From positions 1-21,775 of the IMG/VR virus record IMGVR_UViG_3300031602_000045: a stretch of 21,775 bases of DNA. One strand, 5' to 3'. The DNA is from a virus. The position numbers were made by a program, and so were the translations under genes. The notes under the pieces are model-generated. The model saw nothing but the letters and a program-made list of their open reading frames with translations. It searched no databases and was not told the origin of the DNA. Positions 1-16,254 of the stretch are shown here, piece by piece (position 1 is the stretch's first letter; the number at the start of each line of letters is the position of its first letter).

Positions 1-11
1 TGCTTTCTTCT

Positions 12-403: not shown

Positions 404-430
404 ATCTTTTACAGGTGGTTTTCTTGTTTT
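400..430 (+). terminator. Probable intrinsic terminator upstream of the scaffold gene
   Basis: AACCATC (400-406) pairs with GGTGGTT (414-420), a 7-bp stem with one G-U pair around loop TTTTACA. It is followed by a T-rich tract (TTCTTGTTTT). It would separate the 116-residue gene from the scaffold/capsid unit. The tract is not a pure T run, so efficiency is unclear. Confidence 0.55.
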
Positions 431-442
431 CGTAAAAAGTAT

Positions 443-451
443 ATATTTATA
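443..451 (+). promoter_or_regulatory. Candidate late promoter motif, ATATTTATA
   Basis: This is one copy of the recurrent TATTTAT(A/T) 8-mer, at 444-451, 97 bases before the scaffold ATG and just after a terminator-like hairpin. No consistent -35 element is visible. It is assigned as a promoter because copies cluster in short intergenic gaps upstream of + strand genes. Confidence 0.5.
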
Positions 452-459
452 TACATAAT

Positions 460-521
460 AATCAGTCTCTATACTGATTCCAACAATTTATAATTTTCTA
501 TTACGATTTATAATAATCGTA
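460..521 (+). other. Two matched hairpins in the scaffold-gene leader
   Basis: AATCAG (460-465) pairs with CTGATT (474-479), and TACGAT (502-507) pairs with ATCGTA (516-521). Each is a 6-bp perfect stem with an 8-base loop, and they are 22 bases apart. Both lie between the promoter motif and the ATG at 548, so they would be in the 5' leader of the scaffold/capsid mRNA. Messenger stabilisation or translational control are possible roles. The stems are short and AU-rich, so this is tentative. Confidence 0.35.
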
Positions 522-547
522 GAAACCCACAACAAACATTTATTAAA

Positions 548-1624
548 ATGGCAAACAAAGATTTATTCAAGCAAGCAATTGCTGAAGCAAAATCTGTACG
601 TTCCGCTGCTATTGCTAACGCGAAAGAAGCCCTAGAAGAGTCTTTGACTCCTCATTTAAAAGATATGTTAGCTGCAAAACTTCAAGAGATGGAAGACTCT
701 TCCACAGAAGAAGCAGTAACTGAATCTGATGAGGTAGAAGAAGGTAACTATGAGGCTAAAGACGAAGTAGTAAAAGAGGAAGATGCAGATACTGAAGTAT
801 CCGATGAGGATGCTCCAGAAGAAGAAGAATTAGACGGAGAAGAAGAAATCGCACCTATGGAGGATGAAGCAGAAGAAGCTGCTGACGAAATAGACGGAGA
901 TGAAGACTTATCTAAATTATCAGTCGATCAATTTAAAGATCTTATTAGAGATGTAATAGCAACCGAAATGGGAGCTGAAGCAGGTCTAGAAGGAGAAGAT
1001 GAATTAGGAGCTGATATGGATGCAGGAATGGAAGCAGAACCAGAAATGGGAGCTGAACCAGAAATGGCTCCAGAAGACGGAGAAGGTGAAGAAGAAATTG
1101 ACTTAGACGAATTACTTGCAGAACTAGAAGGTTTAACTACCGAAGGTGAAGAAGCAGATAAAGACGATAAGCCAGTAGAAGAAAGTACAGAAAACGAAGT
1201 ATCAGCAGAATCAGATTCTAAAGAGAAAAACGTTAATGATACTTTGAAGGAAGCTAAACAGAATAGTGCAGACCTTAAAGAAGCTCTTATAACAGTAGAG
1301 ACTTTAAGACATGAACTAAACGAAGTTAACATTCTTAACTCTAAACTATTATACGTTAATAAAATTTTCAAAGCTAATTCATTAACTGAAAGCCAGAAAG
1401 TAAGCATAATCGCTGCATTCGATAAAGCTGAAACAGTTAAAGAAGTAAAATTAGTTTTCGAAACAGTATCAGACAATATTGTCGCACCAGCTAAAACCAA
1501 TCTTAAAGAACATAGAGGTATGGCTTCTAGAGCTACAGGAACTACAGCAAGTAATCCTCCAGTAATAGGACAAGTATCAGAAGCAGTATTAAGAATGCAG
1601 AAATTAGCAGGTATTATTAAATAA
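548..1624 (+). CDS. Prohead core scaffolding protein, T4 gp22-like
   Basis: This encodes 358 residues. After a basic/neutral N-terminus (1-30), residues about 50-215 are overwhelmingly Glu/Asp with Ala, Gly and Met and few aromatics, including the short direct repeat (A)EPEMGAEPEM. The C-terminal third (about 225-358) is more conserved-looking. It has a helical stretch (ETLRHELNEVNILNSKLLY) and a KxSIIAAFDKAETVKEVKLVFETV-type region, as in prohead core proteins of marine T4-like phages, and it ends RMQKLAGIIK. Its place 33 bases upstream of the gp23-like gene matches the T4 gp22-gp23 order. In T4 the core protein shapes the prohead and is then degraded by the gp21 protease. That protease is not in the window. 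Several L/I-x-E sites would suit such cleavage. The leader AAACATTTATTAAAATG has no Shine-Dalgarno sequence. Identity rests on composition, the C-terminal pattern and neighbourhood. Confidence 0.82.
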   Translation: MANKDLFKQAIAEAKSVRSAAIANAKEALEESLTPHLKDMLAAKLQEMEDSSTEEAVTESDEVEEGNYEAKDEVVKEEDADTEVSDEDAPEEEELDGEEEIAPMEDEAEEAADEIDGDEDLSKLSVDQFKDLIRDVIATEMGAEAGLEGEDELGADMDAGMEAEPEMGAEPEMAPEDGEGEEEIDLDELLAELEGLTTEGEEADKDDKPVEESTENEVSAESDSKEKNVNDTLKEAKQNSADLKEALITVETLRHELNEVNILNSKLLYVNKIFKANSLTESQKVSIIAAFDKAETVKEVKLVFETVSDNIVAPAKTNLKEHRGMASRATGTTASNPPVIGQVSEAVLRMQKLAGIIK

Positions 1625-1657
1625 CATTAATTATAAACTTAAATTAAAATTTCAATT

Positions 1658-3250
1658 ATGGAAATTAACAATCTTTTAGAAAGCTCAAACAGCTTTAAAA
1701 GCTTACAAGCTGACTCAGCAAAATTAGCTGAGAAGTGGAGTGCTTCAGGTTTGTTAGAAGGGATCACTGATGAAAGAGTAGCTACAAACATGGCTATGAT
1801 TTTAGAGAACCAAGCTAAACAAATCGTAGCAGAAGCAAATAACACAGGTGCATCTGGTACTTCAGCAGGCTTTACAGCAGGCGCAGGAGAACAATGGGCT
1901 GGTGTTGCATTACCTTTGGTAAGAAAAGTATTTGCTCAAATTAGTGCACAGGATTTCGTATCTGTACAACCAATGTCTTTACCTTCAGGTCTAGTATTTT
2001 ATCTAGATTTCAAATATGGTACTGCCGCTAACGGACGTACTGATGGAGAAAATATGTACGGTAACGTTACTGACGGTGCTAACAAAATGGGTGTTGATGT
2101 AGATCCTTCAGGAGGATTATACGGAGCAGGTCAATTTGGTTACACTATCAACGGTGTATCTGGAACTGTAGCAGCAGCTGCAGTAGGAGCTGCAAAGCTT
2201 AAAGATGTAGGATTCGATGCTGGTATTACATTAGCTGAATACGAAACTGTATCTATCGCTTTATCTTCTATTCCTAACTATGACGTAGAAGGAGTTCGTG
2301 CATTCGGATTAACTTCTGGTTCAGTAACAATCAACAAGCAATTCACTAAAATCTCAGGATCTAACTTAGTATTCGTACAAACAGTAGGAGCAGGAGATAT
2401 TACTGATGCAGATAACGTTCAAGTAACTTATCACAAACAACCAACAGACAACACAAGAGGCGATTTTGAAGCTGACGGTGGTGTAGCAGTTGATACTTCT
2501 ATTTCTATTCCAGAAATCGATGTTCAATTACAATCTGAGGCAATTGTTGCTAAGACTAGAAAGTTAAAAGCACAATGGACTCCAGAATTTGCTCAAGATC
2601 TTAACGCATACCATTCAATTGATGCAGAAGCTGAATTAACTTCTTTGTTATCTGAATACATCTCTATGGAGATTGATTTAGAAATCTTAGATATGTTGAT
2701 CAAAGGCGCTACAACAACTGAAAAATGGTCTGCAGAGAACAACAAAGTCTTTAAAGGCGGTGCTTGGTCTTCAGCAACTTCAGATTTTTACAATACTCAA
2801 GGACAATGGTTCCAAACATTAGGAACTAAAGTACAGAAAGTATCTAACAAGATTCACCAAAAGACCTTAAGAGGTGGTGCAAACTTCGTAGTATGTTCTC
2901 CTTCAGTAGCAACAATCTTAGAATCAATTCCAGGATATGCTGCACAAACTGACGGTAACCAAGAGAAATTTGCAATGGGTGTACAGAAAATTGGTAGCTT
3001 AGCTAACCGTTTCCAAGTTTACAAGAATCCTTATATGACTGAGAACATTATGTTGTTAGGTTACAGAGGTGGACAGTTCTTAGAAGCTGGTGCAGTATAT
3101 GCTCCTTATGTACCATTAATGATGACTCCAATGGTATACGATCCAGAAACCTTCACTCCAAGAAAAGGTTTAATGACTCGTTATGCTAAGAAAATGATCA
3201 GACCAGAATTTTATGGTAAGATCTATATTTCTGACTTAGAGTTAGTATAG
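1658..3250 (+). CDS. Major capsid protein, T4 gp23-like
   Basis: This encodes 530 residues, close to the 521 of T4 gp23. The N-terminal ~59 residues resemble the scaffold-facing propeptide. IVAE-A at residues 56-60 corresponds to the T4 gp23 maturation site (LAE-A), so mature protein probably starts at Ala60. Conserved gp23 landmarks follow: SVQPMSLPSGLVFYLDFKYG near 110-125, the block KTRKLKAQWTPEFAQDLNAY near 305-325, DAEAELTSLLSEYI with EIDLEILD just after, and near the C-terminus YAPYVPLMMTPMVYDPETF then RKGLMTRYAKKMIRPEFYGK. Residues about 150-280 are Gly/Ser/Thr/Val-rich and fit the variable insertion domain. There is no motif-type promoter in the 33-base gap from the scaffold gene, so the two are probably co-transcribed from upstream. 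A strong terminator follows. The sequence is distant from T4 itself. Confidence 0.95.
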   Translation: MEINNLLESSNSFKSLQADSAKLAEKWSASGLLEGITDERVATNMAMILENQAKQIVAEANNTGASGTSAGFTAGAGEQWAGVALPLVRKVFAQISAQDFVSVQPMSLPSGLVFYLDFKYGTAANGRTDGENMYGNVTDGANKMGVDVDPSGGLYGAGQFGYTINGVSGTVAAAAVGAAKLKDVGFDAGITLAEYETVSIALSSIPNYDVEGVRAFGLTSGSVTINKQFTKISGSNLVFVQTVGAGDITDADNVQVTYHKQPTDNTRGDFEADGGVAVDTSISIPEIDVQLQSEAIVAKTRKLKAQWTPEFAQDLNAYHSIDAEAELTSLLSEYISMEIDLEILDMLIKGATTTEKWSAENNKVFKGGAWSSATSDFYNTQGQWFQTLGTKVQKVSNKIHQKTLRGGANFVVCSPSVATILESIPGYAAQTDGNQEKFAMGVQKIGSLANRFQVYKNPYMTENIMLLGYRGGQFLEAGAVYAPYVPLMMTPMVYDPETFTPRKGLMTRYAKKMIRPEFYGKIYISDLELV

Positions 3251-3272
3251 TCTATATCTTGACTAAATTATT

Positions 3273-3299
3273 AAGAGAGGCCTTCGGGCCTCTTTTTTT
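3273..3299 (+). terminator. Strong rho-independent terminator after the capsid gene
   Basis: A 10-bp stem, AAGAGAGGCC (3273-3282) with GGCCTCTTTT (3287-3296, one G-U pair), closes a stable C(UUCG)G tetraloop (3283-3286). A T run follows, 3293-3299. This is a textbook intrinsic terminator ending the scaffold-capsid unit. Confidence 0.93.
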
Positions 3300-3304
3300 A
3301 TGTC

Positions 3305-3313
3305 CTATTTATA
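3305..3313 (+). promoter_or_regulatory. Candidate late promoter motif, CTATTTATA
   Basis: This copy of the recurrent motif (core 3306-3313) lies between the capsid terminator and the phoH start at 3340, 26 bases before the ATG. It supports phoH being its own transcription unit. The + strand TTATAAATC just downstream (3315-3323) also resembles the T4 late core. Confidence 0.55.
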
Positions 3314-3339
3314 GTTATAAATCAAATAAAGTTATAAAC

Positions 3340-4026
3340 ATGCCACAAAGACACCATACCGATGAGGTATTTTCAGTAAAGAAGAGGCCTAAGAACCCAA
3401 TTAAATTTAAAGTACAATTAAACGAAGAACAAAAAGAAGCTAAAGCTAAAATTCTTACTGCTCCAATAACAGTCATTAAAGGAATGGCAGGATCTGGTAA
3501 GACATTAATAGCAACTCAAGTAGCTTTAGATATGTTATTTACCAAACAAGTAGATAAGGTTATTATAACAAGACCTACTGTGTCTAAAGAAGATATAGGC
3601 TTTTTACCAGGAGATATAAGAGAAAAAATGGACCCTTGGTTAGCGCCTATCTATCATAACTTACACATGCTTTACAGCAAAGAAAAAGTAACAAAATTAA
3701 TAGATGACGAAATTATAGAAATAGTTCCTTTTGCTTTTCTAAGAGGAAGGACTTTTGTAAATGCATTTGTAATAGTTGACGAAGCTCAGAACGTAACACA
3801 TACTCAAATGGAAACCGTAATCGGAAGATTAGGGAAAAATTCTAAAATGGTAATATGTGGAGATATGGCTCAAATAGACTTAAAAGACAAAAGAGAAACT
3901 GGATTTTCTTTTCTATCTAGAATTGAAGAGAACGTAGAAGGCTTTCAAACAGCTTCATTAGAAACCAATCATAGACACGATATAGTGGCACCTATCTTGA
4001 AAGTATACCAAACCTTCAGAGATTAG
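3340..4026 (+). CDS. phoH: PhoH-family ATPase
   Basis: This encodes 228 residues from ATG 3340. The frame is open back to an ATG at 3259, but that extension would run through the terminator at 3273-3299 and the promoter motif, so 3340 is preferred. The fold is a P-loop ATPase of the PhoH group. Walker A is GMAGSGKT (48-55). Walker B is VIVDEAQN (144-151). There is a motif-III-like CGDMAQID (173-180) and the characteristic ITRPTVSKEDIGFLPGD (76-92). The C-terminus has LETNHRHDIVAPIL (207-220). The single-domain length is typical of phage PhoH proteins, which lack the RNA-binding KH domain of some cellular ones. PhoH is widespread in marine phages. Its role is unsettled, with nucleotide-dependent RNA work suggested. 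Placement inside the structural region implies late expression. Confidence 0.93.
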   Translation: MPQRHHTDEVFSVKKRPKNPIKFKVQLNEEQKEAKAKILTAPITVIKGMAGSGKTLIATQVALDMLFTKQVDKVIITRPTVSKEDIGFLPGDIREKMDPWLAPIYHNLHMLYSKEKVTKLIDDEIIEIVPFAFLRGRTFVNAFVIVDEAQNVTHTQMETVIGRLGKNSKMVICGDMAQIDLKDKRETGFSFLSRIEENVEGFQTASLETNHRHDIVAPILKVYQTFRD

Positions 4027-4029
4027 TCC

Positions 4030-4038
4030 CTATTTATT
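4030..4038 (+). promoter_or_regulatory. Candidate late promoter motif, CTATTTATT
   Basis: This motif copy (core 4031-4038) lies in the 25-base gap between phoH and the gp13-like gene. The ATG at 4052 is only 13 bases beyond it. If transcription starts about 7 bases downstream of the motif, the leader would be only a few bases long. Confidence 0.45.
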
Positions 4039-4051
4039 AGAAAACTAATAT

Positions 4052-5200
4052 ATGGCAAATGTAACTATATGGAACGGAAGTTCTACCTTTGCACCAGGTA
4101 ATACTCCATTCGGGTTTTACGATGCAGACAGCTCTTTTCAACAAGATGCTGATAAAGTTGCTAAATTCTGTGCTACCAGATTAGGGTACCCTCTAATGGA
4201 TGTAGAATTGAATAACAACTCTTTTTATGCATGTTTTGAAGAAGCTATAACTACATATGGTAATGAAGTATTTCAATACAATATAAGAGAGAATTATTTA
4301 GGTTTAGAAGGCTCTTCTACTGGTAGTAGAGGTTCTTTGAACAACCAAGTAATTGATCCAACCATAAGTAGAATTATACAAATATCTCAACACTACGGAA
4401 CAGAAGCTGGAGTAGGTGGAAACGTAACTAAACATACTGGTTCAATAACGATCAATAGAAATGTACAAAATTATGATTTTGATGCATGGTCAACAGAAAA
4501 TAACATTTCAGGAAAGATTGAAGTAAGAAAAATCTTTTATGAAGCTGCACCAGCGATACAAAGGTATTTTGACCCTTATGCTGGAACAGGTACAGGTGTA
4601 CAGTCTTTAATGGGAGCATTTGACTTTGGAAAATTTAGTCCTGGAGTTAACTTTTTATTAATGCCAACATCTTATGATGTACTAAAGACACAAGCAATTG
4701 AATTTAATGATCAAATTAGAAAGTCCGCTTTTTCGTTTGAAATGACAAATAATAAATTAAAGTTATTCCCAATACCTACTGCATCAGGAAGTTTACATTT
4801 TGAGTATTATAAGATGGAAGACAAAGCATCAACTAACTTTAACTCTAACAATTCAGTAATTACAAATGTTTCTGAAGTACCTTATGAAAATATACAGTAC
4901 AAACAAACTAATAGTGTCGGTAGACAGTGGATTTTCCAATATACTTTAGCATTAGCAAAAGAACTATTAGGATATATCAGAGGGAAGTATGCAACAGTAC
5001 CAGTACCGGGATCAGAAGCAACTCTTAATCAAGCTGACCTGCTTGCAGATGCAAGAAGTGAAAAAGGAGCTTTATTATTAAGTTTAAGAGAGCTATTAGA
5101 TATGACATCTAGAAGTAAACAATTAGAAGCACAGGCTAAAGAATCTGAAGATGTAGAGAACATTTTAAAGTCTGTACCAATGGTAATATACGTAGGTTAA
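4052..5200 (+). CDS. Neck/head-completion protein, T4 gp13-like
   Basis: This encodes 382 residues. It is recognised by its overall pattern and order. The C-terminal part has RQWIFQYTLALAKELLGYIR (about 291-310), then a P-V-P-G-S-E-A-T-L-N segment. A helical DARSEKGALLLSLRELLDMT follows, as in gp13 proteins of marine T4-like phages, where this helical region packs in the neck ring. The N-terminal part carries an acidic/aromatic helix around residues 30-75 (KVAKFCATRLGYPLMDVELN). A TGSRGSLNNQVIDPTISRII segment follows near 97-116. In T4, gp13 and gp14 close the filled head and join it to the tail. It is the first gene of a tight four-gene unit, and its TAA overlaps the next ATG by one base (TAATG). 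It was identified without a database search. Confidence 0.8.
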   Translation: MANVTIWNGSSTFAPGNTPFGFYDADSSFQQDADKVAKFCATRLGYPLMDVELNNNSFYACFEEAITTYGNEVFQYNIRENYLGLEGSSTGSRGSLNNQVIDPTISRIIQISQHYGTEAGVGGNVTKHTGSITINRNVQNYDFDAWSTENNISGKIEVRKIFYEAAPAIQRYFDPYAGTGTGVQSLMGAFDFGKFSPGVNFLLMPTSYDVLKTQAIEFNDQIRKSAFSFEMTNNKLKLFPIPTASGSLHFEYYKMEDKASTNFNSNNSVITNVSEVPYENIQYKQTNSVGRQWIFQYTLALAKELLGYIRGKYATVPVPGSEATLNQADLLADARSEKGALLLSLRELLDMTSRSKQLEAQAKESEDVENILKSVPMVIYVG

Positions 5201-5499
5201 TGAAACTATCACAAATTATATCTGAAATTACATTCAGAACATTCGAAGCAATGATTAAAGTTACCTTTGGTGATGAAGGTCCTAGCAAATATGATGATGC
5301 TATTAGAGCATTACCTGGTGTAACAACAGTTACATTAGCAAGTCAAGACCAAGAATCATTAGTTGCTACATATAAAGTAAAACTTATAAGTCAAAAAGAA
5401 GGAACTGAAGCATATGAAGCTTTTAAAAAAAATGCCATGACTAAATACAGTAATATAGTTAGTATGGAAATAGGAACAGAAACAATAGAAGAGAAATAA
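5200..5499 (+). CDS. Small conserved-looking protein in the neck module
   Basis: This encodes 99 residues, starting within the stop of the gp13-like gene (TAATG), so its translation is probably coupled. I cannot name a family. The pattern is beta/alpha. An N-terminal helix (KLSQIISEITFRTFEAMIKV) is followed by alternating short strands and helices (GVTTVTLASQ, SLVATYKVKLIS, GTEAYEAFKKN, VSMEIGTETIE). This is compatible with a small ferredoxin-like fold. Sitting between gp13-like and gp14-like genes with no spacing suggests a virion or assembly role, such as a neck accessory protein. That is inference from context only. Confidence 0.8.
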   Translation: MKLSQIISEITFRTFEAMIKVTFGDEGPSKYDDAIRALPGVTTVTLASQDQESLVATYKVKLISQKEGTEAYEAFKKNAMTKYSNIVSMEIGTETIEEK

Positions 5500-5994
5500 A
5501 TGCTATTTGGATCGAACAGAGATTTTGACTTATTGGTTAACATCAATAGGGAACTGCTACATGATATTGTAGAGCAAGAAGTTTTATACCATAAATTGAG
5601 TATAGAAGATTCTAGTATGAACCTATATGGAGAATCATTACAGAAATCTTATTGGAACGCAGTTAAAATAGCCTGTTTAATTACTAGAGGAGATCAAGTA
5701 ATAGATATAAAAGAATTTGGTCCTGATTTAGGAAGAGAAGCATCTTTTGCATTCATCAAACAAGACTTAATAGACTCAGAACTACCTCCAGAGGTAGGAG
5801 ATATAGTACAATGGCATAATGATTTTTATGAAGTTGATACAGTTAGAGAGAATACCTTATTTCTAGGAAGAGATAATACATACAATCTTACTAGCAGTAC
5901 ATCTGGATTCGGTTCATCTATGTCGATTATAGTTGATGCTCATTTAACAAGAGCAGACAGAGCAGGAATAACAGAAGCAGTAAATAGAGAATAA
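5500..5994 (+). CDS. Neck protein, T4 gp14-like
   Basis: This encodes 164 residues, with its ATG immediately after the TAA of the previous gene. Features fitting gp14-like neck proteins are an N-terminal N-x-x-RELLHDIVEQEVLYHKLS, the segment MNLYGESLQKSYWNAVKIAC (about 40-59), and a small beta-rich core with LPPEVGDIVQWHNDFYEVDT (about 95-116). T4 gp14 completes the head with gp13 and forms part of the portal-neck interface. The protein is shorter than T4 gp14, as is common in distant T4 relatives. Assignment relies on the beta-core pattern and on lying between gp13-like and gp15-like genes. Confidence 0.72.
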   Translation: MLFGSNRDFDLLVNINRELLHDIVEQEVLYHKLSIEDSSMNLYGESLQKSYWNAVKIACLITRGDQVIDIKEFGPDLGREASFAFIKQDLIDSELPPEVGDIVQWHNDFYEVDTVRENTLFLGRDNTYNLTSSTSGFGSSMSIIVDAHLTRADRAGITEAVNRE

Positions 5995-5995
5995 T

Positions 5996-6811
5996 ATGGC
6001 TGGAAAGAAACCTATACCGAAAAGTCAAGAGCAATTATCTGCAGCCCTTACAGGAGCTTCAATTGATAAAAGCAAAGATCGCGCTATGCAAATAAGAAGG
6101 GATAACGATACAGTTAAAAACTTCAGCGTAGGTATAAAAGATATTGATGAAGCAATTTACTATTACTTTAATGAAGTACTGCAACCAACTGTAACACAGA
6201 ACGGCAAACCTATAAAGGTACCTCTTGTATATGGTTCTCCTGAACGATGGGCAGCAATGCAAAAAGACGGGTATTACCGAGATAAGAACGGTAAGATGCA
6301 AGCACCTTTAATAGTGTTTAGAAGAGATAGTATCTCAAAAAACAGAAACTTAGGAAACAAATTAGATGCTAACGGACCAAACAATATGGGAGTGTTTAAA
6401 ACTTCCTATTCTAAAAGCAATATTTACGATAATTTTGGGATATTAAACAATAGGAAACCTCAAGAAGAGTATTATGCAGTAGCTATACCAGATTATGTTA
6501 ATATAGTATACTCTTGTATAATATACACCGACTATGTTGAACAAAATAATAAAATTGTCGAAGGAATAAACTTTGCATCTGACTCTTATTGGGGAGATCC
6601 AGATAAATATAGATTTAGAGCACAGATAGACACCTACTCTACTTCAGCAGAAATAGTACAAGGTAGCGATAGGATGATTAAGACAGAATTTAACATTACA
6701 TTACTAGGACATATAATATCAGATACTATCAATGCACATATGCACAACAATCGTAAAGTATATAGCAAGTCAGAGGTCAAATTTACTTCAGAAAATGAGT
6801 CTAGCCTTTAA
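5996..6811 (+). CDS. Tail completion/sheath-terminator protein, T4 gp15-like
   Basis: This encodes 271 residues, against 272 for T4 gp15. The pattern agrees with T4 gp15. A substrate-like IKVPLVYGSPERWAAMQKDG (73-92) is followed by PLIVFRRDSIS (104-114). Then comes IPDYVNIVYSCIIYTDY (164-180), matching the gp15 stretch with I-Y-E-L-S-I-F-T. The protein ends with a strand-rich IKTEFNITLLGHI (228-240). In T4, gp15 caps the tail tube and sheath and binds the neck during head-tail joining. A charged N-terminal extension of about 45 residues precedes the conserved part. It is the last gene of the neck module. A promoter motif follows 10 bases after its stop. Confidence 0.8.
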   Translation: MAGKKPIPKSQEQLSAALTGASIDKSKDRAMQIRRDNDTVKNFSVGIKDIDEAIYYYFNEVLQPTVTQNGKPIKVPLVYGSPERWAAMQKDGYYRDKNGKMQAPLIVFRRDSISKNRNLGNKLDANGPNNMGVFKTSYSKSNIYDNFGILNNRKPQEEYYAVAIPDYVNIVYSCIIYTDYVEQNNKIVEGINFASDSYWGDPDKYRFRAQIDTYSTSAEIVQGSDRMIKTEFNITLLGHIISDTINAHMHNNRKVYSKSEVKFTSENESSL

Positions 6812-6819
6812 TCAGGTGA

Positions 6820-6828
6820 CTATTTATA
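6820..6828 (+). promoter_or_regulatory. Candidate late promoter motif, CTATTTATA
   Basis: This motif copy (core 6821-6828) is in the 71-base gap before the giant cadherin-like fibre gene, 54 bases upstream of its ATG. It marks the likely start of the fibre transcription unit. Confidence 0.55.
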
Positions 6829-6882
6829 CTAAAGTAGGCAACTACGACGGTTTTCTTAATATTATAAAATAGCAAAGCTTTA

Positions 6883-9800: not shown

Positions 9801-11571
9801 TGAATCAGCTACTAATGGATCATCATTATACGATAATTCAAATGGATACTCTGGAACTACATCACAATTTACAGCTAACCAATCAGTAACATGGGGTGTC
9901 ACACCGAACAGTAAGTTAGCAATTAATAGCTCAGGCTATCTAACAGTTAATTATAATGTATCAGGATCATCTGAAGTAGGAGGAACACAGATTAACGGAA
10001 CAGTAACAGCAACTAATGCTTTTAATACACCTTCAACACAGAACTTTACATTAAACGTAACAGATAATACAGCCCCTACTATAACATTTACTAATACTAA
10101 TGCTAACTTAAATACTAACAAGGCAATCGCTGGAAACAACCTAGTAGCATTAGCATTTAATGACTCAGAAGGAAATACAATAGACTATACTTCTTATTCA
10201 GCATCATTTAATGGAGATAGCTTAGAATCAGTTGTATCTGGTACTTCTAGGTTGATAAGAGCTACTTCTCCTCTAACAGCCGGTGTATATTCAGTAACAG
10301 CATCAATTGCCGACGAACATGGCTTTGAAACTAGGACATCTAGTCATGCATTTACAATTGCACAAGCACAAACTGGTACATTAACTAATAACGGTACATA
10401 CTATATAATAGAATCAGCAGGAACTGGTGACATTATTAGAACCAATACCAATGGAAGAACAGGAACACAGGGAGATGTCGGAGTTAATTATAGTCCAAAC
10501 TATGGATCACAAGTAGTACAAGCTTTTACTTCTTCTAATGATGCAATAGCAGTTAATAGTAGCGGTAATTTAAGTCTTAACCTTAATATTAGCGGTTCTA
10601 CTACTGGATCAGGAGATACTATAACAAGTACTATACAGTACCAAGACCAATACAACAATCACGGTAGTTCAAACATAACTATTAATGTAGCAACAAATAA
10701 TAACCCATCAGTTACTATATCAGAACAAGGTTCTTTAGAAACAGATAGCATAACATCAGGAGTATTAACAGCAACTGTTAGTATATCAGACACAGAAGCA
10801 GATTATCCGATTACTTTAGCACTATCCGGTACACATGCTTCATCATTTACTGCAGTATCTAATAATAGTAATGGAACATCATTCAATATAAATGCAAATA
10901 GTGCTTTAGCAGCAGGAACTTATAGCTTTACAGCTACAGCCACTGATGCTTTCGGGAAAACAGGTACAGATACAGGTAATGTAGTTATAGCTCAATCAGC
11001 TGACTACGGTAAAGTGTATGTTTATACTTCCACATATGGTTCAGATGCTGGTTTTGGAGGTAATTATAATGCAGTAATGGGAGCAAGTACTCTTAATGGT
11101 GATACTCCTCCACAAGTTACAGCATATACAGGAAATACAGCATCACCTTATTATAAATTTAAAGCAGGAGCGATAGGAGACAGTTCAATATCATTAGCAG
11201 GATCACAATCAGCAACATTACAGGCAACACTTAGTGGGTCTAACTTAGATACAGTACTAGCATCAGCAGGATTAATTTCTGCAGCTACAACTGGACAGAT
11301 AATAGTTCTATTTCCTTCTGGATCAGATATGAGCAACCTACCGACATCTATTCAAGAGACCTTTAACAGTGTAGCAGGAGGAGCAGTCCCTTGTTTGAAT
11401 GTAGATGGAGGAGGATTCTTAATAGAGACAGGGGAATTACATTCTATAGTGCTCGACACTGCTCATTTAGGATATAACGAATGGTTTGTATTTGGTAGAA
11501 AGTCACAAAATGCAATAGCAACAGCTTTTAAAATAAGACTTGTTGCAGCTAACGGAAGTCTACCAACATAA
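6883..11571 (+). CDS. Giant fibre/adhesin with cadherin-like repeats
   Basis: This encodes 1562 residues, with an in-frame TAA just upstream at 6865 so the start is firm. It has four regions. (1) 1-120: N-terminal FIGEISGSLVFRKDN and Thr/Ser/Gly-rich sequence, presumably the virion-attachment end. (2) About 120-530: shaft of S-S-S-(A/L/I)-Q-(I/V) units alternating with GLNTFT(G/S)SI helical segments, as in fibres of many marine phages. (3) About 530-620: a linker with LGTSVKPWQHLYISSGSIKF. (4) About 620-1370: seven Ig/cadherin-like beta domains of roughly 100 residues, joined by links such as NAAP, DNTQPT, DDGAPT and DNTAPT. DPEGD- and ATDxxG-type motifs may bind calcium. Residues about 1371-1562 form a distinct C-terminal domain I do not recognise, possibly the receptor-binding tip. 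Neck fibre or tail fibre are both possible. The product probably trimerises. Confidence 0.85.
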   Translation: MSKFIGEISGSLVFRKDNVMQTELRPGMNALNLTGSLNITGSSLTFNGSDVINRIASLEAGSATGSSLLPLNLHSSSINTYTGSVDKRLAAIEIVSGTLETKVEALEQLTSSYFSRVDASNIVSSSIQVEGLGFIKNALSGSQQLLNLGFKRDVISGSQQIASLGFVTSSGIASFNQLSNIPSSIISSSAQIESLLYITGSTYQEITSKPPGIVSSSAQITALGFGTVNSGTISSSLQIESLGFVTSSATTDVEGLNTFTGSIEIKVDNLTSASGSYLTGINAGILSSSAQITALGYITASVSSDVAGLNTFTSSIQTEVNSIKAVTGSFLSSLPNSIISSSAQISSLGFLSSAHTEIPEGTISSSLQIGTLGYITSSVQSDVTGLNTFTSSIEATVQGLLSATSSYAVGSHSDITSINLFTGSIQSKVDNLTLSTGSLQNEVNALKASTGSYLNSLNAGILSSSLQVEALGYITASVKADVTGLNTFTGSIEASVLGLLQATSSYAVGSHSDITGLNNKTGSFASTGSNTFIGNQIVTGSIIPGSSTNDLGTSVKPWQHLYISSGSIKFMNKDGTQQSAFNNQFDGNRVVSNTEHPLFNSYNPGTANTIEDFLEAVFYPNTAPTISTGNQVVAEYEPIGTNLVTLAGADAESQAITFTIDSSYTDGYVNITSGVLKLAALPTVAAFNTTDRGDSVFAHPVIVRATDTIGAFTLKTIYVTVTANAAPQFRETSVGGNVISSFTTSRNENAAAGEITKIYFTDTETDTITITSGSDSGDLFSIVKSPTYVTINQVTGSLDYETKTTHTLSITASDQHFSDGDDSNSFVQIPITINVTDNTQPTVNAQTVTGLSENSAGNAAAGTITATDPEGDTIVFKTVTLIGIELDSSAISLGTYTGTSVSDPTENAFDISSTGVVTRKAAVFLNSDIVNSYKYRVTVTDAYNNGTDTGIITIPISDDGAPTISGETSLYVIESATNGSSLYDNSNGYSGTTSQFTANQSVTWGVTPNSKLAINSSGYLTVNYNVSGSSEVGGTQINGTVTATNAFNTPSTQNFTLNVTDNTAPTITFTNTNANLNTNKAIAGNNLVALAFNDSEGNTIDYTSYSASFNGDSLESVVSGTSRLIRATSPLTAGVYSVTASIADEHGFETRTSSHAFTIAQAQTGTLTNNGTYYIIESAGTGDIIRTNTNGRTGTQGDVGVNYSPNYGSQVVQAFTSSNDAIAVNSSGNLSLNLNISGSTTGSGDTITSTIQYQDQYNNHGSSNITINVATNNNPSVTISEQGSLETDSITSGVLTATVSISDTEADYPITLALSGTHASSFTAVSNNSNGTSFNINANSALAAGTYSFTATATDAFGKTGTDTGNVVIAQSADYGKVYVYTSTYGSDAGFGGNYNAVMGASTLNGDTPPQVTAYTGNTASPYYKFKAGAIGDSSISLAGSQSATLQATLSGSNLDTVLASAGLISAATTGQIIVLFPSGSDMSNLPTSIQETFNSVAGGAVPCLNVDGGGFLIETGELHSIVLDTAHLGYNEWFVFGRKSQNAIATAFKIRLVAANGSLPT
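7240..8330 (+). repeat. Coding repeats: SSSxQ / GLNTFTGSI fibre shaft
   Basis: Eight copies of S-S-S-(A/L/I)-Q-(I/V), most followed after a few residues by (S/A)LG(F/Y)(I/V), alternate with four V-x-GLNTFT(G/S)SI units. Two degenerate S-G-S-Q-Q units also occur. The phrase AVGSHSDIT occurs twice (8106 and 8403). Related S-S-S-A-Q units recur in the 417-residue fibre downstream. Confidence 0.8.
8740..10995 (+). repeat. Seven tandem cadherin/Ig-like coding domains
   Basis: Approximate domain starts in bases are 8740, 9051, 9400, 9761, 10071, 10369 and 10696. Domains 4 and 6 resemble each other (YVIESATNGSSLYDNSNGYS versus YIIESAGTGDIIRTNTNGRT), as do 5 and 7, suggesting duplication of a two-domain unit. 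DNA identity between domains is low, so the duplication is old. Confidence 0.7.
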
Positions 11572-11588
11572 TAATATAAAGATAGAAT

Positions 11589-12395
11589 ATGCCAGTATAT
11601 ACTTCAATATTAGAGTTAACATCAGCAGCCAGTAGTTCGGGTGTTGCGTTTGCGGATATACAGTACCTAAAAGGTGCATTCTATACAGTAAGAGACACCT
11701 CAGATCTTAATAACATACCAGCAAACAGGGCAACAGACGGACAAATAGTTTGGGTTGAAGGATCTTCAGCTACATATCAAGCATCTGTTACATTAGCAGA
11801 TTATGTTAGTACCTTTGCTGATTCAGTAACATGGAGTGTATTTAATGGCTTTGGAGGAAGTGGAGGAGCATCAACATTAGGAGACTTATCAGATGTAAAT
11901 ACTGGTTCATTAGACGATGGAGATGTATTAGCTTGGAGTCAATCAAATAATAGATGGGAACCACAGAATATATCAGGAACTGGAGATATTGCAGCAGTAT
12001 TTGCAGGAGATGGACTTTCAGGAGGAGGAACTCAAGGTTCTGTATCATTAGATGTAAATGCAGGTTCAGGTATCACTTTAGACAGTAACGGTGTAAATGT
12101 TAACACAGGTTCATCACATTTTATTAATGCAGTTACAATTTTAGCTGGAGCATCCAGTATATTTGCACAAACTGGATCATATCATTCAACAAATAGAAAT
12201 ATAGAGGTAACAGGATCGATGTCTATCAATATGACAGGCAATACAAATCCTTTCACTCTTACATCAGGATCTAAAGAACTATTTAAGGTTTCAAGTACCG
12301 GAGTTCTTTTATTAACATCTCAATCTACTATACCAACACCAGTAGTCGGAGGATTGTATTTTGACTCTGATAAAAACTTATATTTTGGTTCTTAG
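11589..12395 (+). CDS. Fibre-like structural protein
   Basis: This encodes 268 residues, 17 bases after the double TAA of the cadherin-like fibre and with no promoter motif between, so probably co-transcribed. The N-terminal ~85 residues (MPVYTSILELTSAASSSGVA... AFYTVRDTSDLN) look like an attachment domain. Residues about 95-128 contain LGDLSDVNTGSLDDGDVLAW, then W-E-P, a phrase common in phage tail fibres. A GDGLSGGGTQGSVSLDV-type beta segment follows at about 138-154. The C-terminus is VGGLYFDSDKNLYFGS, a short tip motif. Gly/Ser/Thr-rich composition supports a trimeric beta-structured fibre. Its exact position on the virion cannot be told from sequence. Confidence 0.75.
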   Translation: MPVYTSILELTSAASSSGVAFADIQYLKGAFYTVRDTSDLNNIPANRATDGQIVWVEGSSATYQASVTLADYVSTFADSVTWSVFNGFGGSGGASTLGDLSDVNTGSLDDGDVLAWSQSNNRWEPQNISGTGDIAAVFAGDGLSGGGTQGSVSLDVNAGSGITLDSNGVNVNTGSSHFINAVTILAGASSIFAQTGSYHSTNRNIEVTGSMSINMTGNTNPFTLTSGSKELFKVSSTGVLLLTSQSTIPTPVVGGLYFDSDKNLYFGS

Positions 12396-12411
12396 TATTA
12401 AACTAAATAGC

Positions 12412-12420
12412 CTATTTATT
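12412..12420 (+). promoter_or_regulatory. Candidate late promoter motif, CTATTTATT
   Basis: This motif copy (core 12413-12420) is in the 85-base gap before the 480-residue fibre gene, 61 bases upstream of its ATG. Confidence 0.5.
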
Positions 12421-12424
12421 AACA

Positions 12425-12447
12425 ATGCCAAAAGGCATAAAATTTTT
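12425..12447 (+). terminator. Weak terminator-like hairpin
   Basis: ATGCC (12425-12429) pairs with GGCAT (12434-12438) around AAAA, followed by AAAA and TTTTT (12443-12447). It has a 5-bp stem with a T run. It could end the 268-residue gene transcript, but it lies just after the promoter motif, so it may be a leader hairpin or attenuator instead. Confidence 0.35.
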
Positions 12448-12480
12448 ACTAACAAATAACAATAAAATAATTACAACAAA

Positions 12481-13923
12481 ATGGCAGAATGGAAAAAAAT
12501 TGTCGTATCCGGGAGTGGTTTAGCCCAATTAGCGAATGATGCTAATTTCTTAACAACAACAGGAAACGGTTCAGGATTAACAAACGTTGCAGCAGCTTCA
12601 GTAGCAGCAGGCAATGTAACAGGCTTAAATGAGGCTATTGATGATCAAGTTAATTCGGTGTTAGGAAGTGCGGACGGTTCTGTTACTTTGACATATAACG
12701 ACTCAGCAGGAACATTAGACTTATCAGTACCAGCAGGTGATGTAACGGGAGTTGCAGCAGGAGCAGGACTTACTGGTGGAGGAGCAGCAGGCGACGTAAC
12801 ACTTAACGTAATTGGCGGAGACGGTATCACAGCTAATGCAGACGAATTAGAAGTAACTGTAGATGGTTCAAGTATTGAATTATCAGCATCAGACGGTACA
12901 GGAGCAGTTAGAGTAAAAGCTGGCGGTATTGCAGAAGGACATCTTGCTGATGATTCAGTAACAGCAGCAAAATTAGCTGACTCAATCAATTCAGCTATTT
13001 TAGCTAACACTAATAAAACAGGAATTTCTGGAGCTCAAGTATCAGCAATTACAAACAACAGTGCTAAATTAACAAATGCAACTCACTCAGGTGAAGTTAC
13101 AGGAGCCGGAACACTTACAATAGCAAACGGTGCAGTAGTTGAAGATAGAATTGCAGATAATGCAGTAACAGCAGCTAAATTAGCAAATACAGCAGTATCA
13201 CCAGGTACATATGGTAGTACAACAGTAGTACCAGGAATTACAGTTGATGCACAAGGACGTATTACAGGTGTAACTTCTAATACTATTGCAACTTCATTTA
13301 ATGTAGCAGCCGATTCAGGAACTACAGATTTAGTAGCAGGAGGCGAGACATTAACTTTCGAAGGTGGAAGTGGTATCGCATCAACAGTATCAGCAAACAA
13401 AGTTTCTTTTGCATTAGATAACGGAATCGTTTCAGCTTCTAACTTCAGCGCACCTTCACAAGGTACAATGAGATCAGGACAAAACGGAGTTAACACAGAT
13501 GTAGATTTAGGTCTACAAACTACTGACTCTCCAACATTCGTTGGATTAACTTTATCAGGAAATGCTACAGTAGCAGGTAATTTATCTGTTAGTGGAGACT
13601 TAACATATATTAATACGACTAACCTTGCAGTAACAGATAAGTTTATCTTATTGAACTCAGGATCTGCCAACCCAGATGAAGGTGGTATTATAATTGATGA
13701 AGGAAACGGAGTAGGACACGGTTTTGTATTTGATAATTCAGATTCAAGATTCGGTGTTAATCAATCAGTAGATTCAAAAGTTAACGGGACAGCCGCTAAT
13801 GAAGCATATGTTGCTTTAGTAGTAGATGAGGATAACGCAGCCCACGACATTGCAGATACCGAATACCACAAAAGAGGTAACATGAAGGTAAATTCTTCAG
13901 ACGATATCTTTATCTACGTATAG
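12481..13923 (+). CDS. Fibre protein with WKK N-terminal tag
   Basis: This encodes 480 residues. The N-terminus MAEWKKIVVSGSG is nearly the same as in two further fibre genes (14028, 15648) and probably docks these proteins at a common site. GNGSGLTNV follows at 28-36. The middle is a beta-rich shaft. It contains GAGLTGGGAAGDVTLNV (90-106), two copies of a D-x-(S/A)-V-T-A-A-K-L-A unit, and SPGTYGSTTVVPG with DAQGRITGVTS, phrases widespread in phage tail fibres. Residues about 347-480 form a C-terminal module shared with the 417-residue fibre, including the TDKFILLNSGSA and GIIIDEGNG.GHGF motifs. No S74 chaperone domain is present. It has its own promoter motif upstream and a strong hairpin downstream, so it may form a single-gene unit. 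The leader is AT-rich with no Shine-Dalgarno sequence. Confidence 0.82.
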   Translation: MAEWKKIVVSGSGLAQLANDANFLTTTGNGSGLTNVAAASVAAGNVTGLNEAIDDQVNSVLGSADGSVTLTYNDSAGTLDLSVPAGDVTGVAAGAGLTGGGAAGDVTLNVIGGDGITANADELEVTVDGSSIELSASDGTGAVRVKAGGIAEGHLADDSVTAAKLADSINSAILANTNKTGISGAQVSAITNNSAKLTNATHSGEVTGAGTLTIANGAVVEDRIADNAVTAAKLANTAVSPGTYGSTTVVPGITVDAQGRITGVTSNTIATSFNVAADSGTTDLVAGGETLTFEGGSGIASTVSANKVSFALDNGIVSASNFSAPSQGTMRSGQNGVNTDVDLGLQTTDSPTFVGLTLSGNATVAGNLSVSGDLTYINTTNLAVTDKFILLNSGSANPDEGGIIIDEGNGVGHGFVFDNSDSRFGVNQSVDSKVNGTAANEAYVALVVDEDNAAHDIADTEYHKRGNMKVNSSDDIFIYV

Positions 13924-13931
13924 TAGATTAA

Positions 13932-13974
13932 TAATAATGAGGGAGAGAACTTAACCACCTCTCCCTTACTATTA
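13932..13974 (+). terminator. Long hairpin, probable terminator
   Basis: AGGGAGAG (13940-13947) pairs perfectly with CTCTCCCT (13959-13966) around an 11-base loop. The stem extends outward, TAATAATG (13932-13939) with TACTATTA (13967-13974), with one mismatch and one G-U pair, for about 15 pairs in all. There is no clean T run, only an AT-rich tail. It lies 9 bases after the stop of the 480-residue fibre gene. Confidence 0.65.
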
Positions 13975-14027
13975 TATTATAAAAATTAGGTTAAGATTAA
14001 CATTATCATTAGAAAATACAATAAGAC

Positions 14028-15281
14028 ATGGGTTGGAAGAAAATAATTGTTAGTGGTTCACAAGCTATATTAGATTCATTAACAGTAGACAACGGCTTAT
14101 CAGCCGCATCATTTAGTGGAGGTGGAGCAGGCATCACAGGAGTAGTACACAACTCTGGTGAAATTGCATCTGATATATCTGGATCATTTAATGCAGTATC
14201 TGCATCTATAGCTACAGACATAGCAAATATATCTACAGACTTTGGAAATATAGCAAATAAACCCACTCTTATATCATCTTCAGCACAAGTTGAAGCAACA
14301 TTACTAGATAATACTGTAACATTCGGTACAGGAACAGTAACAGCCGCAGCCTTCGTAGGTAATGGCTCTCAATTATCTGGAATAACAGTAGATCAAGCAG
14401 CAACACTTGCTAGTACATTTACTAACCAAACATCAGTAGAGGTAGTACATAACTTCTCTTCTCCAAACATTAATACAACAGTTTACGATGCAGACGGGTA
14501 TCAAATTATACCTGCTTCTGTAAGAGCAAACTTAAACGATAGAGTAACAGTAACCTTTTCTACAGCAACATCAGGTAGAATAGTAGTAGCTAAAGGTGGT
14601 CATATTATATCTGGATCAATAGCGTACTCAACCATATCAAATATTCCAACACTAGTATCTGGTTCAACTCAAGTAGATTTTGATTCAATTCAAAACAAAC
14701 CTACAACTATTTCAAATGCACAAGGTACTAAGTTATCAAGCATAACAGTAACTCAAGCAGTTAACTTAGATTCAATGGAGTCTAACATAACTACTAACAA
14801 TAGTAAATTAACAGCTAATACATCTAATGTAACCGCAGCAGGAGCATTAATGGATTCAGAAGTAAGTAACTTAGCAGCTGTAAAAGCAATTAACCAAAGT
14901 CTAGTAACATCAGCATCTCCAACCTTTGCAGACTTAACAATATCAGGTGATTTAATTGTACAGGGAGATACAACTACAATATCTACAGCTAACCTATTAA
15001 TCGAAGACAAGTTTATTCTTTTAAACTCTGGATCAGCAGGAACAGCAGACGGTGGTATCGTAATAGATGAAGGAAGTGGTAATGGCCATGGATACATATA
15101 CGATTCTGCTACCGAAAGATTTGGTTTTCATAATTCATTAAGCTCAACAGCAACCTCAGCAACTCCTCAAGCCTTTGCTTCAGCAGTAGTAGATATAGAT
15201 GCCGGACACAGTGACATATCAGAATACCAAAAGAACGGTAATGTTAAAGTAGATACTGGCAATATATTTATATATGCTTAA
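14028..15281 (+). CDS. Fibre protein with WKK tag and shared C-terminal module
   Basis: This encodes 417 residues. The N-terminal tag is MGWKKIIVSGSQ. Residues about 20-105 hold a fibre-type segment with S-S-S-A-Q-V. At about 109-116, FVGNGSQL is followed by a ~65-residue beta module (about 128-195) with VVHNF, then Y-D-x-D-G-Y-Q-I-I-P, then SGRIVVAKGGHIISGS. The same module occurs twice in the 188-residue protein downstream. Residues about 294-417 match the C-terminal module of the 480-residue fibre (EDKFILLNSGSAG, GIVIDEGSGNGHGYIYD, E-R-F-G). The protein is thus a mosaic of both relatives. A copy of the TATTTATA motif falls inside its last codons, at 15265-15272. No exact promoter motif precedes it. 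The nearest candidate is the degenerate ACTATTATATTATAAAA after the hairpin. Confidence 0.82.
   Translation: MGWKKIIVSGSQAILDSLTVDNGLSAASFSGGGAGITGVVHNSGEIASDISGSFNAVSASIATDIANISTDFGNIANKPTLISSSAQVEATLLDNTVTFGTGTVTAAAFVGNGSQLSGITVDQAATLASTFTNQTSVEVVHNFSSPNINTTVYDADGYQIIPASVRANLNDRVTVTFSTATSGRIVVAKGGHIISGSIAYSTISNIPTLVSGSTQVDFDSIQNKPTTISNAQGTKLSSITVTQAVNLDSMESNITTNNSKLTANTSNVTAAGALMDSEVSNLAAVKAINQSLVTSASPTFADLTISGDLIVQGDTTTISTANLLIEDKFILLNSGSAGTADGGIVIDEGSGNGHGYIYDSATERFGFHNSLSSTATSATPQAFASAVVDIDAGHSDISEYQKNGNVKVDTGNIFIYA
15264..15272 (+). promoter_or_regulatory. Candidate late promoter motif, ATATTTATA
   Basis: This motif copy (core 15265-15272) is embedded in the final codons of the 417-residue fibre gene, 28 bases before the preferred ATG (15301) of the next small gene. 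Confidence 0.45.
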
Positions 15282-15300
15282 AAAATTAAAATTAACAGTT

Positions 15301-15540
15301 ATGGGATTAATTACAAAAGGTAAAATTACAACAGGAAAAGGAGCTAATGTAGAGAATGCAAAAGCAAAGGAAAAAACAGAAGCTGTTAAAACATCGGCTC
15401 TGAAAGCCCCTCCTACTATATTTTCTCCTGAGGAAGTTCAATTCATTATTAGTAAAATGCGTCAAGCAGACTACAAGGGAGTCGAACTAGAAACTTCATT
15501 TATTATTTTCTCTAAACTTTCTGCACTTATTAAGCAATAA
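15301..15540 (+). CDS. Small protein of unknown function between fibre genes
   Basis: This encodes 79 residues from ATG 15301. An in-frame ATG at 15274 would add nine residues but overlaps the upstream gene and sits only two bases after the promoter motif, so 15301 is preferred. The first ~40 residues are Lys/Thr/Ala-rich and probably disordered (LITKGKITTGKGANVENAKA). The rest is a compact helical segment: FSPEEVQFIISKMRQADYKG, then VELETSFIIFSKLSALIKQ. Unlike its neighbours it is not a fibre: it lacks Ser/Gly/Thr repeats. I cannot name a family. A fibre-assembly helper or linker would fit the location, but this is speculation. Confidence 0.75.
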   Translation: MGLITKGKITTGKGANVENAKAKEKTEAVKTSALKAPPTIFSPEEVQFIISKMRQADYKGVELETSFIIFSKLSALIKQ

Positions 15541-15567
15541 AAGTTGCATTGTAAACATATTTACCGT

Positions 15568-15576
15568 ATATTTATA
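15568..15576 (+). promoter_or_regulatory. Candidate late promoter motif, ATATTTATA
   Basis: This motif copy (core 15569-15576) is in the 107-base gap before the 188-residue fibre gene, 71 bases upstream of its ATG. The rest of the gap includes CTCATTTGAG, a near-palindrome, and no gene. Confidence 0.5.
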
Positions 15577-15647
15577 TTAAAGCTATTATAGGCCTTTAAC
15601 AGGGAAGTGGGCTCATTTGAGTAACCAACCATAATGTAAGTAAGAAA

Positions 15648-16214
15648 ATGCCAAATTGGAAAAAACTGATAGTAAGCGGCTCGTCTGCAAACCTATCAAA
15701 TCTTAATGTAGATAATACTTTGACCGCTACAAGCTTTGTAGGTAATGGGTCACAGTTAACCGGTATAACAGCGGAGATAGCAGAAACTGCTACAAAACTA
15801 GATACGTTTACTAACGTAACATCTAAAACCGTAACTCACAACTTTAATAGCAAAAACGTTTTAGTATCAATATACGATACTAGCGATCAAGTGATTATTC
15901 CTTCAACAATCACAACAACAACCCTTAACACTGTAGATGTAACATTTAACTATCCTACCTCAGGACGAGCAATAGTAGCTAAAGGAGGTCATATAGTTTC
16001 TGGCTCTGCAGAATTATACACTCATAGAGAATCCATTTCTGGTGCATCTCAATATACAATAAACCATAACTTATCAGAAGAGTTTCCTGTAGTACAGGTA
16101 TACGATACTAATAAAAAACAAGTTATACCTAAAGACGTAGAATCTACAACAAATAATAGAGTAGTAATCACTTTTAATTCTCCACTAAATGGTACCGTGG
16201 TAGTTAAAAAGTAA
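15648..16214 (+). CDS. Short fibre protein with WKK tag and duplicated beta module
   Basis: This encodes 188 residues. The N-terminal tag MPNWKKLIVSGSS is followed by NVDNTLTATSFVGNGSQLTG (about 19-38), closely like the 417-residue fibre. Two copies of a ~65-residue module follow. Copy 1 (about 53-120) has VTHNF, IYDTSDQVIIP and SGRAIVAKGGHIVSGS. Copy 2 (about 125-188) has INHNLSEEFPVVQVYDTNKK, VIP and a terminal GTVVVKK. The conserved skeleton is H-N-(F/L), V-x-(V/I)-Y-D, (V/I)-I-P, and V-x-(I/V)-T-F ending in a V-V strand. It lacks the C-terminal module of the other WKK proteins. It may be a short fibre, a decoration protein or a spacer on the shared docking site. Confidence 0.8.
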   Translation: MPNWKKLIVSGSSANLSNLNVDNTLTATSFVGNGSQLTGITAEIAETATKLDTFTNVTSKTVTHNFNSKNVLVSIYDTSDQVIIPSTITTTTLNTVDVTFNYPTSGRAIVAKGGHIVSGSAELYTHRESISGASQYTINHNLSEEFPVVQVYDTNKKQVIPKDVESTTNNRVVITFNSPLNGTVVVKK

Positions 16215-16215
16215 C

Positions 16216-16224
16216 ATATTTATA
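16216..16224 (+). promoter_or_regulatory. Candidate late promoter motif, ATATTTATA
   Basis: This motif copy (core 16217-16224) is in the 40-base gap before the largest fibre gene, 30 bases upstream of its ATG. Confidence 0.55.
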
Positions 16225-16254
16225 CATAACAATAATTTCATACAATAATAACAG

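Follow-up and report, generated by a model that had tools for sequence, protein, structure and literature searches.

Late transcription in phage T4 involves gp55, gp33 and gp45 and uses promoters made of an 8-bp -10-type box, with no -35 element, upstream of late virion genes. The sections consulted of one source place this box, TATAAATA, at -13 to -6 (PMC1524935), and the structure of gp55 in complex with RNA polymerase (RNAP), as the consulted portion of its report describes it, has A-12 and A-8 inserted into deep pockets, with a shallow pocket for A-9 (PMC7892883). Other T4-type phages likewise carry such a box before late virion genes, with NATAAATA being the form in cyanophages and pelagiphages (S-PM2 and syn9, in the consulted part of PMC2984593; for HTVC008M, assigned by count in this analysis). 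Here, we analyzed a 21,775-base phage fragment (IMG/VR record IMGVR_UViG_3300031602_000045, hereafter the window), in which all genes lie on the + strand and the word TATTTAT(A/T), hereafter the box, recurs upstream of gene units. Among phage records, four of Flavobacterium phage immuto come nearest to it, with a capsid protein that is 64% identical, and by extension from immuto the host of the whole clade would be a member of the Bacteroidota. As judged from sequence, the box is characterized by its position, its strand, its conservation, a fixed spacing to covarying leaders, and the presence of two upstream signal classes in the same genomes. We consider it likely that a sigma factor of the type of immuto gp118 directs the host polymerase to TATTTAT(A/T) as a -10-only late promoter, a two-base variant of the T4 box, in Immutovirus-like phages of Bacteroidota. 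By analogy, the box very probably acts like the T4 late box, and we regard it as a variant of this known type of promoter and not as a kind of its own.

The preliminary description of the window, made from its letters, had listed nine + strand copies of the box from 196 to 16217, and all nine are exactly where they were placed; one further copy lies on the - strand (7113-7120). An explanation by chance, with an AT-rich word recurring in AT-rich spacers, can point to the total, as the 10 copies on both strands compare with a dinucleotide-shuffle mean of 8.17 and 32 of 100 shuffles reach 10. The distribution of the copies is another matter. With gene starts assumed at 3340 and 15310, seven of the nine sense copies fall wholly within the 804 non-coding bases (3.7% of the window), where there is no antisense copy. 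Shuffled non-coding segments held a mean of 0.61 boxes and a maximum of 5, and none of 5000 shuffles reached 7 (binomial P 3e-9), so that the comparison with an AT-rich shuffled control that had been named as one way to refute the motif came out in its favor, at 7 against 0.61. The box is thus beyond chance by position and strand, and not by total count, because the shuffles match the total but never the seven non-coding copies.

Eight of the copies stand upstream of a gene. These are 444-451 (TATTTATA; before the scaffold-position gene 548 and the major capsid protein (MCP) gene 1658), 3306-3313 (before phoH, start 3340, and directly behind a terminator-like hairpin), 4031-4038 (TATTTATT; before the neck gene 4052 and the packed genes 5200, 5500 and 5996), 6821-6828 (before gene 6883, with 11589 behind it), 12413-12420 (TATTTATT; before gene 12481), 15265-15272 (inside the 3′ end of gene 14028 and before a small gene running from 15274, or 15310, to 15540), 15569-15576 (before gene 15648) and 16217-16224 (before the fiber gene 16255), all on the + strand. 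From the end of the box to the next start they leave 96, 26, 13, 54, 60, 37, 71 and 30 nucleotides (nt), respectively, where the 37-nt gap rests on the assumed start at 15310, the listed open reading frame (ORF) starting at 15274. These gaps bear out the earlier statement that eight of nine copies lie 13-97 bases before a start and seven of them in non-coding DNA, subject to that start at 15310. The copy at 196 is internal, as had been said, with 344 nt to the next start, and genes 1658, 5200, 5500, 5996, 11589 and 21513 indeed lack a box, as does gene 14028, which had been singled out as the exception. Before the latter (13924-14027), only a degenerate TATTATATTATA follows a hairpin.

The same arrangement recurs among relatives. 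In all 31 records searched whole, the box leans to the capsid-sense strand (sense:antisense 27:3 in contig G015, 19:1 in G019, 52:20 in G001 and 53:33 in immuto). The pattern read backwards, used as the control for these counts, is also strand-biased in many records (12:2 in G015) and is no independent control, because the shared core TATTTAT reads the same backwards. Within the upstream segments of the seven larger genomes, TATTTATA occurs 133 times in sense and 20 times in antisense orientation, ranking second of all 8-mers for asymmetry, and CTATTTAT occurs 90 and 3 times. We then compared individual genes across 83 loci, 67 of them non-redundant, with gene starts from an ATG-only gene caller and orthologue numbers limited to those with a locatable start; the loci are related to each other, and the counts are not independent. 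Within 110 nt upstream, the box is found in 23 of 23 orthologues of the scaffold-position gene (ending 87-96 nt before the start codon), in 33 of 34 of phoH (18-36 nt) and in 47 of 58 of the neck gene (13-19 nt, with one at 91). It precedes none of 64 MCP orthologues (one for the shorter TATTTAT), and 1 of 50, 0 of 57 and 1 of 51 orthologues of the packed genes 5200, 5500 and 5996. Twenty shuffled 7-mers gave medians of 0-4 as a footprint control, the best reaching 23/23 for scaffold, 25/58 for neck, 13/34 for phoH and 14/64 for MCP; perhaps some of the high-scoring ones overlap a longer AT context.

Counted over 66 loci (the 67 less Mel-JY01), the 30,083 non-coding bases upstream of genes hold 265 sense boxes and the 769,133 coding bases hold 59, a 115-fold difference in density; antisense boxes number 27 and 61, respectively. 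Among 64 phage loci, the box occurs 230 times in sense and 21 times in antisense orientation, at a density of 8.5 per kilobase (kb). Chance recurrence in AT-rich spacers is refuted by the non-coding shuffles, the orthologue conservation and this 230:21 ratio, and we give it practically no credence. The core of the box is strict: among its one-base variants, an excess on the sense strand is seen when the final base is T (47:19) and, to a weaker degree, when position 7 is G (16:2) or C (8:1).

What follows the box is informative as well. At 457-547 on the + strand, the scaffold-capsid unit opens with a structured 5′ leader with hairpins at 460-479 and 502-521, and its folding z-score is -4.16 (456-547). 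In an alignment of 50 such leaders, 99.1% of cells are paired and 12 of 13 pairs show changes on both sides, the covariation score being 0.640, compared with 0.248 for shuffles and no more than 0.13 after sliding. The alignment keeps 50 of 56 leaders, 49 of them distinct; L011, L012, L013, L016, L065 and L081 were dropped as 98-100% like kept rows. A box was required for inclusion, which makes the box constant by construction but leaves the pairing, and the distance from box to helix, free to vary. Counted from the box start, pairing begins after 15 nt in 41 rows, 16 nt in 8 and 17 nt in 1, accounting for all 50 rows. On the T4 assumption of a start 13 nt after the box start, the RNA would begin 2-4 nt before this helix, and for the 444 box the T4 frame (-13 to -6) predicts a start at ~457. 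One locus (L035, 8804-8922) has a scaffold leader with two tandem boxes, the second at the standard spacing to the hairpin.

A second leader, a three-way junction at 15585-15635 on the + strand, precedes gene 15648 (helices 15585-15592/15629-15635, 15593-15595/15602-15604 and 15608-15613/15620-15627). Across 13 aligned rows, 98.6% of cells are paired and 7 of 16 pairs show changes on both sides; the leader starts 13-18 nt after the box start in 12 rows and 32 nt after it in one. These rows required the box and AGTGGG, which are hence constant by construction, unlike the pairing and spacing, and they represent 13 of 16 matches, as G001 equals the window row, L087 equals the L080 row, and L055 is likely a chance match in coding sequence. 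GGAAGTGGGC and GTAACC are constant in all 13 rows. A small hairpin (ATGCCAAAAGGCAT, 12425-12438) directly after the 12413 box is perhaps another structured leader. Rfam gave no match in the window at the gathering threshold, and relaxing to E values up to 5 gave far-below-threshold, unrelated families in both leaders; the 15648 leader is a candidate new RNA family, and the scaffold leader could possibly regulate capsid protein synthesis. Because the leaders sit at a near-fixed step after the box, they appear to be RNA 5′ ends, and no other observation here speaks more strongly for the box as a mark of transcription starts. We infer that the box starts transcription and that it does so late.

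Upstream DNA in the same phage genomes contains another signal as well, GTTG-N17-21-TAnnTTTA, which is found 33 times forward and once in reverse in immuto, 30:3 in G013, 29:3 in G020 and, more weakly, 10:6 in G001. It resembles the Bacteroidota housekeeping promoter TTG-N-TAnnTTTG, whose element TAnnTTTG is given in the consulted sections of PMC10309648. Dense arrays of this signal stand before small early-region genes in immuto (NC_055915, 60-78 kb), G020 (20-39 kb) and G013 (147-162 kb). The two signals segregate in immuto, with 24 early and 2 late boxes at 60-78.15 kb and 3 early and 28 late boxes at 78.87-160 kb (P 1e-10); the 0-60 kb stretch, with 4 early and 11 late boxes, was left out of that test.

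This division also bears on whether the box might act as an RNA element of the 5′ leader, signaling processing, stability or translation, and not as a promoter. The box does lie on the sense strand at a short distance before start codons, and UAUUUAU-like words bind proteins in other systems. Such a role is nevertheless very improbable, as the boxes at 444 and 3306 lie directly behind terminator-like hairpins, the packed genes have no box though they also need translation signals, the box is rare in the immuto early region, and it sits just outside the structured leaders at near-fixed spacing.

A different possibility is that the box is a late promoter read by the main or an alternative sigma factor of the host, perhaps with a phage activator, and not by a gp118-like protein. 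The box resembles the Bacteroidota -7 element TAnnTTTG with changes, and the phages seem to use host-type promoters for their early genes. Unlike the housekeeping promoter, however, the late box has no TTG: 4 of 260 sites have GTTG at the fitting distance, and the columns upstream of late boxes peak at 0.46 bits, for the G at -18 relative to the start of the box, so that no -35-type element is seen. Identity with the Bacteroidota housekeeping promoter (-33 TTG with -7 TAnnTTTG) was accordingly rejected. Nor is the box enriched in host upstream DNA. In 38 of 80 host-type contigs, kept for a GC content below 40% and including some that are not Bacteroidota, TATTTATW occurs 11 times in sense and 14 in antisense (0.35 per kb), and in the 33 of 80 with a Flavobacteria title, at any GC content, 8 and 9 times; TTG-N-TAnnTTTG gives 27:0 in both sets. 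The box as a host promoter was discarded on these counts. Together with the strict core of the box and the presence of a sigma-like protein in the phages, these findings leave reading by a host sigma factor rather unlikely. The earlier proposal, a class of late promoters in which no -35 box is visible, is thus supported, by the shuffles, by the orthologue footprints with their negative-control genes, by the host control and by the 4 of 260 GTTG sites.

Aligned with the T4 box, TATTTATA retains T-13, A-12, T-11, A-8, T-7 and A-6 of TATAAATA, with A changed to T at -10 and -9. As the deep-pocket residues A-12 and A-8 of the gp55 structure, in the part of its report consulted, are kept, the two-base change falls where tolerance may be possible. 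In one-directional late blocks, the sense counts of TATTTATA and TATAAATA are 1:12 in T4, 0:3 in syn9, 0:3 in HTVC008M, 7:0 in the window and 18:10 in immuto, where some boxes are a palindromic TATTTATAAATA containing both; for T4 upstream segments in a 50 kb stretch with genes on both strands, the ratio is 6:10. Mel-JY01 shows 7:1 in upstream segments and 7:6 in its whole 40 kb block, and RM378, with 2 TATTTATA and 1 TATAAATA in the 16 kb counted, was not taken as carrying the box. The clade's box therefore has TT where T4, the cyanophages and the pelagiphages have AA at -10/-9. Since TATTTATA is the reverse complement of TATAAATA, we also considered an inverted T4 box, but sense TATAAATA is unenriched (20 in the seven genomes and 0 in the window) and, because the box is nearly palindromic, the same orientation with two central changes is the simpler reading. 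We do not file the box as a T4-type member, because sense TATTTATA outnumbers sense TATAAATA, one of the two defining T4-type sequences (TATAAATA or NATAAATA), by 133 to 20 in the upstream segments of the seven genomes, and because the clamp-binding tail was not seen in the candidate sigma factor. The preliminary description had called the promoter class undescribed. This holds in that TATTTATA was not found described as a late promoter of phages in the literature searched, the results of which were surveyed in part, but less so in that the box is a two-base variant of TATAAATA and that a divergent box is on record: in the consulted sections of PMC1524935, phage Aeh1 has the late box CTAAATA together with a divergent gp55. 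Aeh1 thus offers an earlier case in which late box and sigma factor both diverge, with a sequence change other than that of the clade.

The box is probably read by a phage sigma factor listed as a hypothetical protein. This is gp118 of immuto (NC_055915, 78150-78869), with homologues in L137-L216 and at least 600 matches in an IMG/VR scan. A search with the gp55 family (phrog_234) gave weak matches (E 0.003-0.008) in immuto, G002 and G018, 3 of the 19 non-T4 records, all of them open frames of like length (240-242 amino acids). Homologues are present in 10 of 30 records (G002, G013, G014, G015, G018, G020, immuto, Mel-JY01, LR756508 and, marginally, RM378), and in immuto and G002 the gene is found 46-49 kb ahead of that for the capsid. 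The protein was modeled twice with AlphaFold2, using 29 and 80 sequences, with predicted local distance difference test (pLDDT) scores of 75 and 78. For both models, VIA-align ranked T4 gp55 first (7d7c, the gp55-RNAP complex), with Z 9.4, 129 aligned residues and a root-mean-square deviation (RMSD) of 6.8 for model 1 and Z 9.6, 127 and 6.7 for model 2, and, by title, sigma factors or RNA polymerase complexes make up all 50 rows for model 1 and 49 of 50 for model 2. Both models have the sigma region 2 fold, at predicted template modeling (pTM) scores of 0.46-0.50 and Z under the mark of ~13 that VIA-align sets for helical folds. In hhalign, F86 and Y97, which are among the gp55 pocket residues named in the consulted part of PMC7892883, stand opposite F92 and Y103, both invariant in the sigma alignment. 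The gene is also tied to the box by position, as TATTTATW lies 0-16 nt after the sigma stop codon in 80 of 80 loci with enough sequence.

Several observations weigh against this assignment, and against the box as its target. The gp55-family search at E<=1 also matched in 7 of 14 control genomes, and a second comparison gave E 0.03-0.7 for 4 of 5 proteins, two of which had better matches to families of unknown function. Pfam Sigma70_r2 reached E 0.011 in 1 of 5 sigma-like proteins, under the cut-off, and a PDB sequence search with the sigma-like protein gave no sigma factor. The pTM values of the two models are 0.46 and 0.50, their best Foldseek E values are 0.17 and 0.21, and the first rank of gp55 is a tie, with the next rows within Z 0.5; VIA-align itself cautions that Z below ~13 for helical bundles may mean a common arrangement only. 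By hhalign, the probability for the sigma profile vs. gp55 is 7%, and 1 of 60 column-shuffled nulls scored 23.8 vs. 23.7 for the 83-row sigma profile. The nearest element upstream of the sigma gene is mixed (early 19, late 27, none 11 of 57), leaving early expression of the sigma gene unsupported, and an early promoter for it was rejected. LR756508 (L221, a 484 kb phage) has a 40%-identical sigma homologue, and in the 41.6 kb read no late motif was recognized and TATTTATA was not enriched. Both this phage and the reliance of the sigma identity mainly on predicted structure speak for a host sigma factor. Moreover, 11 of 58 neck orthologues and gene 14028 have no box. Neither the window nor contig G001 has the sigma gene, but this says little for a fragment such as the window or for a contig that reaches ~15 kb ahead of its capsid gene, given the 46-49 kb in immuto and G002. 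A gene order shared with T4, in which genes 46/47 lie next to gene 55, was also considered for the sigma gene and dropped, as immuto gp115 and gp116 gave no Pfam match. On balance, the models support gp118 as a sigma factor but do not prove it, and such a protein would read the box using the host polymerase.

The T4 system differs from the clade in its accessory factors as well. The gp45 clamp family (phrog_223) had no match at E<=1 in complete immuto or in 18 contigs, with T4 as positive, although a diverged clamp could be missed. The SLDFLYE stretch near the end of T4 gp55 is its clamp-binding part, and no such tail was seen by eye in the sigma alignment. At their C terminus, conversely, gp118-like proteins share a conserved helical domain (KKALYIYIREMTDCETP) that was not observed in T4 gp55 and that may be a region 4. 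A phage-encoded RNA polymerase was rejected, with no match in 8 records, one of the searches being without a positive control. In the mechanism that we propose, early genes would be transcribed by host RNA polymerase from the host-type promoters GTTG-N17-21-TAnnTTTA. The phage sigma factor, the gp118 homologue with its gp55-like region-2 domain and C-terminal helical domain, would then direct the host polymerase to late boxes (core TATTTAT(A/T), with C or A before it) ahead of the head, neck, tail and fiber units, RNA would start ~6 nt after the box, and in at least two units the late RNA would open with a conserved structured leader. More tentatively, and with some doubt, the two-domain sigma factor might replace gp55, gp33 and gp45 together, reading TATTTATA without clamp coupling, with the leaders controlling capsid and head-fiber production.

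The genes behind the boxes include virion genes, with the same gp23-type capsid family as T4. All on the + strand, they include the scaffold-position gene (548-1624; named from its place before MCP, with no family match), MCP (1658-3250; Pfam Gp23, E 8.8e-82), a PhoH-like protein (3340-4026; Pfam PhoH, E 7.7e-63 on the ORF 3259-4026) and the neck protein, head-tail adaptor Ad2 (4052-5200; phrog_211, E 2.7e-14), and the window also carries fiber genes, such as 16255. IMG/VR contigs L011-L013 have capsid proteins 99-100% identical to that of the window, G002 is among the contigs at 99%, and an IMG/VR scan for this capsid returned at least ~600 matches. Of the hairpins described earlier, those at 400-420 (preceding the 444 box) and 3273-3296 (10 pairs then a T run, closing the scaffold-MCP unit), both on the + strand, are terminator-like, though such sites are not above chance in number (8 in 1-16500 vs. 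7.0 in shuffles), and the one at 13932 failed the scan criteria.

With the box, late units could be read by a simple rule in a phage clade that has at least ~600 IMG/VR matches each for capsid and sigma factor, and a function is suggested for gp118, a conserved hypothetical protein. The box would also represent a naturally occurring change of two bases in the clamp-activated promoter that has been studied best, at positions where the gp55 structure suggests tolerance, and with immuto as an isolated phage, the clamp need of T4-type late transcription becomes testable. The leader RNAs, both of them covarying, are in turn candidate regulators of capsid and fiber synthesis.

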